DNA of 64,000 nt from positions 684,501-748,500 of the forward strand of contig NZ_CP072347.1 in NCBI RefSeq assembly GCF_018127925.1. Reading direction: 5' to 3'. Source of the stretch: Prevotella melaninogenica (GTDB lineage Bacteria > Bacteroidota > Bacteroidia > Bacteroidales > Bacteroidaceae). Each line of letters begins with the position of its first letter. Positions within the stretch are counted from its first letter, which is position 1. A program made the translations under genes and the position numbers. Shown here piece by piece: positions 2,173 through 2,663 of the stretch. The notes under the pieces were generated by a model. It was not told the origin of the DNA. It saw only the letters and a program-made list of their open reading frames with translations, and made no database searches.

Positions 2173-2203
2173 TTGTTTGTTTCATATCTTCTCACTACCT
2201 TTG
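2173..2203 (+). promoter_or_regulatory. Promoter of locus 1 leader
   Basis: TTG at 2173-2175, 20 nt, then TACCTTTG at 2196-2203. It lies upstream of the dinucleotide repeat, so the repeat is inside the transcript. The same arrangement is seen in locus 2 (32706-32736). Confidence 0.65.
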
Positions 2204-2237
2204 CGCCCAGTTAAATTAAAATTAACTTGTAATAACA

Positions 2238-2456
2238 GTGAGCGTCATCAAGAATATTAATTCAGCAAATGTTTGCACCTTTGGAAATAAAGGCGTAAAC
2301 ATGTTTAGTGCTGCATTAGATTCTTTAATGAAGAAAGACGAAAAAAATATCGCAAATTATTTGGTAATTCCAAATAATTTTGTACTCTCTCTCTCTCTCT
2401 CTCTCTCTCTCTCTCTCTCTCTCTCTCTCTCTCTCTCTCATATAGGGCAGGCCTAA
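2238..2456 (+). CDS. Leader ORF crossing a (CT)27 tract (candidate phase-variable leader peptide)
   Basis: A 72-codon frame from GTG 2238 (alternative ATG 2301) that runs through the (CT)27 tract as a Leu-Ser polymer and stops at 2454-2456. The stop is 58 nt before the terminator-like hairpin at 2514. No protein family is recognised. Loss of one CT unit, or gain of two, would move the ribosome into a frame that stays open through the hairpin and stops at 2564-2566, just after the U-tract. The third frame stops immediately after the repeat. A leader of the same design is found at 32560-32685. Translation is not proven; the peptide may matter only for where the ribosome stops. Confidence 0.45.
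   Translation: MSVIKNINSANVCTFGNKGVNMFSAALDSLMKKDEKNIANYLVIPNNFVLSLSLSLSLSLSLSLSLSHIGQA
2385..2438 (+). repeat. (CT)27 dinucleotide microsatellite
   Basis: Fifty-four perfect bases of CT between GTA and CATATAGG. Such tracts change length by slipped-strand mispairing. It lies between the locus 1 promoter and a hairpin terminator, within a leader reading frame. Confidence 0.98.
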
Positions 2457-2513
2457 CCTCCCCACTTTTTTCTTCTCGCATACGCGCGCGAGGCGTACCG
2501 TGCAACCCCTGTA

Positions 2514-2552
2514 AACAAAGGACTTTTCGGAGTTTCCTTTGTTCGCTTTTTT
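2514..2552 (+). terminator. Conserved leader hairpin with U-tract (candidate attenuator), locus 1
   Basis: Stem AACAAAGGA / TCCTTTGTT around a CTTTTCGGAGT loop, followed by CGCTTTTTT. It resembles an intrinsic terminator but precedes the genes rather than following them. The stem, loop edges and upstream GCGCGCGA-GGCGT stretch are nearly identical at 32464-32530 on the other strand. Confidence 0.7.
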
Positions 2553-2663
2553 GTGTCCCTACGTAAACGAAATAAGAAGAAATTAAGCACGAAATAATAA
2601 CTTTATTTTAATCAATAAAACAGGATATACGTTTGCAATGTGTCCTCTAAAAAATTAAACGAA

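Follow-up and report, generated by a model that had tools for sequence, protein, structure and literature searches.

Why does a genome of Prevotella melaninogenica carry a long CT repeat inside a short reading frame, directly ahead of a terminator-like hairpin and of genes for a small protein and a lipoprotein? The locus lies near the start of the 64,000-nucleotide stretch of contig NZ_CP072347.1 analyzed here, to which we refer as the window. A first-pass annotation, made from the letters of the window, had proposed a promoter, a leader frame crossing (CT)27 and stopping at 2456, a hairpin at 2514-2552, and a repeat whose length sets transcription termination versus read-through.

Anatomy of the window locus

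Every element of the proposed layout was recovered (Table 1). The promoter could be assigned to a -7 box of the form TAnnTTTG, which we take to be the Bacteroidota type. The leader ORF at 2238-2456 spans the repeat found by TRF at 2385-2439, and the hairpin, with its stem and the T6 run ending at 2552, folds with a modest -9.7 kcal/mol (ViennaRNA). The 65-aa ORF and the 529-aa lipoprotein gene were confirmed downstream, and by sequence and folding an intrinsic terminator is predicted between the leader and the structural genes. The three exit frames behind the repeat also behave as had been described: one stops directly (2443), the current one stops at 2454, 57 nt 5' of the hairpin, and the third stays open until 2564-2566, beyond the terminator. 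The window leader starts with GTG and its closest paralogues with ATG.

A consensus scan of the window recovered neither the leader promoter nor the hairpin, because it was built for sigma-70-type promoters, a poor match to this phylum, and its stem rule is unfit for a bulged stem. No Rfam family scored above its gathering threshold at the window leader. A member of the Rfam FopS sRNA family was observed at L041:1378-1444 (minus), adjoining a divergent copy of the candidate attenuator.

Table 1. Coordinates of the features discussed, in window positions
Feature	Position	Strand	Remark
-7 box TACCTTTG (TAnnTTTG)	2196-2203	+	TTTG at 2176-2179 by eye; promoter span 2176..2203
Leader ORF	2238..2456	+	GTG start; crosses CT tract; current frame ends with TAA 2454-2456
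Hairpin P1, arms GTTTGCACCTTT/AAAGGCGTAAAC	2271..2300	+	In leader; presumed CA-class counterpart covaries
Hairpin P2, arms TTATTTGG/CCAAATAA	2354..2380	+	In leader, immediately 5' of tract
Perfect CT tract, 27.5 units	2385..2439	+	TRF score 110; proposed slipping element
TAG	2443..2445	+	Shuts one alternative exit frame right after the tract
Conserved CGCGCG module	2476..2503	+	Between tract and terminator; invariant columns within ACGCGCG; possible pause hairpin
Predicted intrinsic terminator	2514..2552	+	Stem 2514-2543, then T6 at 2547-2552
TAA	2564..2566	+	End of read-through frame, past terminator
Small protein, 65 aa	2664..2861	+	First gene 3' of candidate attenuator; paralogues often about 70 aa
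Lipoprotein, 529 aa	2880..4469	+	One of 57 near-full-length paralogues
HU-HIG DNA-binding protein	4917..5372	+	PF18291, E 1.7e-25; next gene downstream
Second candidate attenuator cassette	30348..32714	-	Predicted OFF
Second cassette, -7 box TTACCTTTG	32714-32706	-	
Second cassette, GTG leader start	32700	-	
Second cassette, (AC)7.5 tract	32592-32578	-	
Second cassette, hairpin	32502-32477	-	
Second cassette, small protein	32192-31980	-	
Second cassette, lipoprotein	31925-30348	-	

About sixty copies of the leader in the genome

A DNA search of the P. melaninogenica genome with the window leader gave 42 matches, with the best 40 of 73 candidates scored. For the tract-to-terminator module, a covariance model trained on 26 copies from this genome and 13 copies from relatives found 60 copies in its 3.36 Mb (best 150 of 1395 candidates scored). 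Two of the 60 are weak matches (E 9e-6 and 2e-4), owing to different terminators. By repeat, the copies fall into 19 with CT and 41 with CA, and their tracts have 6.5 to 38.5 units, with a median of 16. These leader tracts contain 279 of the 281 (CT)6 windows of the genome and all 391 of its (CA)6 windows, which, with the sixty copies, sets the arrangement apart from coincidence. In the window leader as in the family, the leader ORF contains a tandem repeat whose length is not a multiple of three.

The TAnnTTTG box was present upstream of all 60 copies, at a distance from the tract of 112-113 nt in 41/41 CA copies and of 170-182 nt in 16/19 CT copies. In the CA class, including the second copy in the window (32700-32714), the GTG lies about 5 nt 3' of this box, and the CA-class leader mRNAs may be leaderless.

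One exit frame is kept open through the hairpin

Exit frames were analyzed in 180 copies, namely, the 60 above and 120 chosen among the matches listed from 27 other genomes; the terminator could be located in 179. We defined a strict pattern as exactly one exit frame open through the hairpin, with the other two stopping at least 15 nt before it. This pattern was seen in 155 of the 179 copies, which come from 28 genomes (57/60 in P. melaninogenica and 98/119 in the relatives). The 24 departures comprised 11 copies with two frames open, for which two of the three phases would be ON, 8 in which a second frame stops near or in the hairpin, and 5 with no open frame. Against dinucleotide shuffles, the strict pattern was found in 154/178 copies with 53.5 expected (two copies dropped) and at least one frame open through in 173/178 with 101.5 expected; the copies are related, and such raw per-copy counts overstate their independence. 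When copies were clustered at 85, 75, and 65% identity, the strict pattern was found in 30/46 (13.5 expected), 16/26 (7.6), and 4/6 (1.9) clusters and an open frame in 44/46 (26.5 expected), 25/26 (15.5), and 6/6 (3.3), the excess of open frames in the 75% clusters having a p value of 6e-5.

Four unlike tract-end designs in the P. melaninogenica genome, ATATAGGnCAGGCCTAA, AGTAGAGCAGGCGTAA, GGCGCACCTAGCGTTTAA, and ATAGTATTATAA, arrive at the same frame result. The later of the two early stops lies 46-61 nt 5' of the hairpin in 58 of the 60 copies; of the two exceptions, one falls 10 nt short of the hairpin and the other 15 nt into it.

Selection on the reading frame

We compared the stops seen in each frame with the number expected if each copy's own substitutions were placed at random, a calculation that uses substitutions alone. 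In CA copies, the read-through frame contained a stop in 1 of 63 copies with 19.4 expected, and in 0 of 36 with 6.4 expected when only those of P. melaninogenica were counted. No such deficit was found in the read-through frame of CT copies under this indel-free model (7/17 with 7.6 expected; 1/9 with 1.15 expected). Stops were also depleted in the leader frame, being seen in 1/41 CA leaders of P. melaninogenica (15.1 expected), in 2/54 CA leaders of G000, G003, and G026 (23.6 expected), and in 1/19 CT leaders of P. melaninogenica over their last 75 nt (8.6 expected). The deficits were weaker in 26 leaders of G122 and G076, whose consensus leaves two frames open (9 seen with 13.5 expected and 4 with 12.2 expected).

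At the same time, the three codon positions of 40 CA leaders of P. melaninogenica were alike in variability (0.092, 0.082, and 0.097). Together with the stop deficits, this argues that in the CA class it is the frame that is selected, and not the peptide. A frame kept without conservation of its peptide is what a cis-acting translation device predicts, and the CA-class sequences fit that prediction.

Structure of the leader RNA

The terminator shows compensatory change at 4 of 11 pairs, and its U-run (at least 6 T in 8 nt) is present in 59 of the 60 P. melaninogenica copies. For the upstream leader, RNAalifold returned only 5 pairs, none with double changes. A structure named from the alignment, consisting of P1 and P2, had 32 cells with double changes, more than any of the 500 shuffles or of the slid controls, and two of its five measures were not above the shuffles, namely, the number of pairs with double changes (6; as high in 141/500) and that of further pair types (17; as high in 407/500). 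As to function, we can only guess that P1, P2, and the CGCGCG module are pause or coupling elements.

Predicted states and tract lengths

From their exit frames, 23 of the 180 copies were predicted to be ON and 145 to be OFF; of the remainder, 1 stops at the hairpin, 10 had no leader ORF by the rule used (at least 4 of them sitting at a contig end), and 1 had no located terminator. The corresponding numbers for P. melaninogenica were 5 ON (L009, L014, L026, L045, and L127), 53 OFF, and 2 without an ORF. The ON share was below one third both overall (23 of 168 scorable copies; p = 9e-9) and in P. melaninogenica (5/58; p = 2e-5), and also among copies with at least 6 units (21 ON and 127 OFF; p = 1.7e-7 against one third), with the reservation that tract lengths in assemblies may be wrong. 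Since the number of units differs freely among sibling copies, this deficit in the sequences hints that the cell is not indifferent to the exit frame.

In the assemblies, repeat number varied among paralogues and, at two placed loci, between species. L048 (27 units, predicted OFF) and L009 (26 units, predicted ON) share 94.7% identity across an alignment of 453 positions. Orthologues were sought among 36 copies from seven relatives by the requirement that both flanks match one P. melaninogenica locus, which placed two of the 36. One of these, L157 of G182, corresponds to the window locus (flanks 92.8% identical across 377 nt and 88.9% across 570 nt) and has 11 units versus 27.5; the other, L151 of G177, corresponds to locus L010 and has 12.5 units versus 15.5. 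A copy with 5 units in G146 (L162) failed the flank test, and the gene next to it is, by eye, near-identical to that of the window locus.

Two further observations concern the extremes of tract length. L239 of G061 has 263 CT units, more than 500 nt of pure repeat. In G026, five of the nine copies read (L140, L142, and L146-L148) have only 3-4.5 units in an OFF frame and are perhaps locked OFF.

Genes behind the leaders

Behind the 60 P. melaninogenica leaders we found 56 members of one lipoprotein family, 2 lipoprotein-like ORFs of larger size (832 and 798 codons in the sequence examined), 1 BspA-type leucine-rich-repeat protein, and 1 483-aa protein without a Pfam match. A profile of the lipoprotein family had 58 matches in the genome, 57 of which span at least 484 of its 520 positions. 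None of these 57 near-full-length genes contains an internal stop, though most are predicted to be OFF, and 56 of them carry a leader. The sole near-full-length paralogue without leader and tract (G000:C2:1746774-1748246) has its own promoter and may be constitutive.

The window lipoprotein had no Pfam or NCBIfam match, its PDB sequence profile gave one chance-level match only, and Mfa_like_1 was matched by 3 of 56 paralogues. In its AlphaFold model, the N-terminal part (residues about 46-315) has the Bacteroidales fimbrillin-type adhesion protein fold, as became apparent on a second look at the Foldseek ranking, with the two-domain beta-sandwich of Mfa/FimA-type proteins; residues beyond about 315 were barely covered by the comparison. 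On the strength of this model, the window lipoprotein is predicted to be fimbrillin-like. The window small protein likewise had no Pfam or NCBIfam match. Many members of the small-protein family found between attenuator and lipoprotein end in SWED, and none of those scanned matches Pfam or NCBIfam.

Inspection by eye of the first 40 cassettes read showed that many are followed by HU-like ORFs, which are of several sequence types. In the window locus, the interval that separates the lipoprotein gene from the HU gene holds imperfect repeats at 4552-4748, which have inverted arms and are spaced by multiples of 22 nt.

Distribution among related genomes

Of 276 genomes in the genus, 55 had matches to the covariance model (E 0.001), as did, in a sample of the family, 52 of 398 genomes and 7 of 22 genera; both counts include the P. 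melaninogenica genome and several weak matches. In a sample of the order at E 1e-6, this genome was the only one of 295 with a match. A pattern scan (80 of 101 stretches listed, with the genome's own records possibly left out) named as carriers Prevotella jejuni, P. veroralis, P. vespertina, P. pallens, P. micans, P. oulorum, Hoylesella enoeca, H. marshii, H. saccharolytica, H. pleuritidis, Segatella maculosa, Alloprevotella tannerae, and Prevotella sp., which are presumably mostly species of the mouth.

Among 19 more distant copies, with hairpin bounds set by eye, 7 had the strict pattern, 6 had one open frame and a second stopping late, and 6 had two open frames, 4 of these 6 in one Alloprevotella genome (G385). 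In that genome, a second exit frame is also open through the hairpin in four of the five copies L352-L356; two of their three phases would be ON, the proportion known from Streptococcus gallolyticus.

A model of the switch and its alternatives

The element in the window is very probably a transcription attenuator that is phase-variable and translation-dependent, and the genome has about sixty such elements. This reading draws on the anatomy of the locus, its repetition, the frame logic, the selection on frames, the differences in tract length between copies and between species, and the intact downstream genes, all features of the sequences themselves. Transcription would start behind the box at 2196-2203 and produce a short leader ORF whose peptide sequence is irrelevant, and the frame in which ribosomes reach the CT or CA tract would be fixed. 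Slippage during replication, which we infer to occur within a clone, would change the number of units and with it the exit frame. In two of the three exit frames, the ribosome would stop early, the hairpin would form, and RNA polymerase would halt (OFF). In the third, the ribosome would cross the hairpin and keep it open, and the genes for the small protein and the fimbrillin-like lipoprotein would be transcribed (ON). The window leader would accordingly be ON with 26 or 29 units and OFF with 27, the present number, or 28. With sixty switches of which few are ON at once, and given the surface role that we infer for the lipoprotein, a population could display many combinations of surface proteins. 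The comparative evidence agrees with the earlier suggestion that repeat length governs termination versus read-through, lends it support, and takes it further.

The repeat might instead act by translational phase variation, shifting the frame of the expressed protein itself, with the hairpin being incidental. Two of the 55 P. melaninogenica loci with a recognized small protein (L025 and L028) would allow this, their read-through frame being that of the small protein. In the other 53, the window locus among them, the two frames differ: in 3 loci the read-through frame extends past the start of the small protein, out of phase with it, and in 50 it ends short of that start, by 4 to 138 nt in 49 and by 328 nt in one. 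Moreover, the lipoprotein has its own ATG further downstream, and such a frameshift would leave the conserved, covarying terminator unexplained. We therefore consider this explanation very unlikely.

The tract could also work by the shape of its DNA or RNA or by spacing, for example, as a polymerase pause or as a recombination site for shuffling cassettes, and what counts would then be its length and not its exit frame. The leaders are indeed long repeats that could recombine, and in the G182 match to the window locus the 3' side of one tract-end class appears, by eye, to be joined to the leader of another. Yet shape or spacing predicts neither the avoidance of stops in leader and read-through frames nor the deficit of one exit frame, which makes this a very improbable account of the element, and recombination among leaders may go on alongside attenuation. 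The least probable account that we weighed is a sensing attenuator, in which ribosomes short of a charged tRNA would stall at (Leu-Ser)n or (Thr-His)n codons and repeat length would tune the sensitivity. In the leader frame the tracts do encode LSLSLS or THTHTH, and two covarying hairpins lie 5' of the tract. Against it, no biosynthesis gene was recognized directly behind the P. melaninogenica leaders, tracts of just 3-5 units occur, and the CT and CA classes encode different residues within one architecture; stalling would also not account for the pattern of two early-stopping frames and one maintained open frame.

Going beyond the window locus, we lean toward the broader view that Prevotella and its close relatives practice antigenic variation by dozens of parallel, independent, translation-dependent attenuators, each with a slipping dinucleotide as its switch (about sixty here). 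The leader peptide would be irrelevant, most switches would be OFF and few fimbrillin-like lipoproteins shown, and the leader hairpins and the CGCG module would keep ribosome and polymerase in step.

Relation to known systems

In attenuators of the trp and his type, translation of a leader decides whether a terminator forms, dependent on amino-acid supply; by our model, the decision would here be set by repeat number. Classification of the element as an amino-acid-sensing attenuator was tried and rejected, as the genes downstream encode a small protein and a lipoprotein and not biosynthesis or transport of the encoded amino acid. In the simple-sequence contingency loci opa of Neisseria and lic of Haemophilus, a short repeat inside the expressed ORF slips and shifts its frame, and many unlinked surface loci yield random combinations. 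Short-repeat slippage, many loci, surface molecules, and random combinations would be shared by the system proposed here; the repeat, however, sits in a leader apart from the expressed gene, and under the model its target is transcription termination. Since the read-through frame is that of the small protein in just 2 of 55 P. melaninogenica loci, and not in the window locus, we also rejected an opa-type frameshift contingency gene.

The nearest parallel found is the pil1 pilus operon of S. gallolyticus, whose repeat-switched leader attenuator with a GCAGA repeat was demonstrated by mutants of the start codon, the terminator, and stops and by RT-PCR (Danne et al. 2014, PMC3894217); the same report describes the same attenuator for pil3. 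In both, a leader ORF contains a tandem repeat, and translation in one frame ends far short of an intrinsic terminator (a predicted one here), with others ending near, inside, or beyond it. Surface appendage genes lie downstream, by prediction in the present case, and the majority of S. gallolyticus cells are low, as most would be here. S. gallolyticus isolates whose leader stop lies at least 28 nt before the terminator retained the mostly low profile (PMC3894217). The differences lie in the unit (a pentanucleotide there and CT or CA here, and we claim no common descent of the leaders), in scale and host (two pilus operons in Streptococcus versus about sixty cassettes in a member of the Bacteroidota), and in the high phases (two of three in S. 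gallolyticus versus one of three in most P. melaninogenica copies) (PMC3894217). The P1/P2 leader hairpins and the CGCG module present here go unmentioned for S. gallolyticus in the parts of that report drawn on here (PMC3894217).

Within the Bacteroidales, the capsule loci of Bacteroides fragilis are, as proposed here, several surface loci in one genome switched at transcription, but there an invertase inverts promoters, whereas repeats would slip here; according to a review, oral Bacteroidales lack this multiplicity of phase-variable capsules (PMC12632263). We found no further description of a system like the present one in Prevotella or Bacteroidetes, nor other examples of the mechanism, in the open-licence PMC literature. 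As far as searched, the mechanism is thus not new in kind, and what is new is the family of dinucleotide leaders, the host group and phylum, and the scale.

If the model is true, a mechanism that we found described only for the pilus operons of S. gallolyticus is also used in another phylum, possibly with an independent origin, and human-associated bacteria possess a surface-variation system that extends over the whole genome. This would explain why one genome keeps 57 fimbrillin-like paralogues that are intact yet mostly silent, and the state of each locus would be predictable from its sequence alone. Which surface proteins a given cell produces is probably left to random changes in repeat length.
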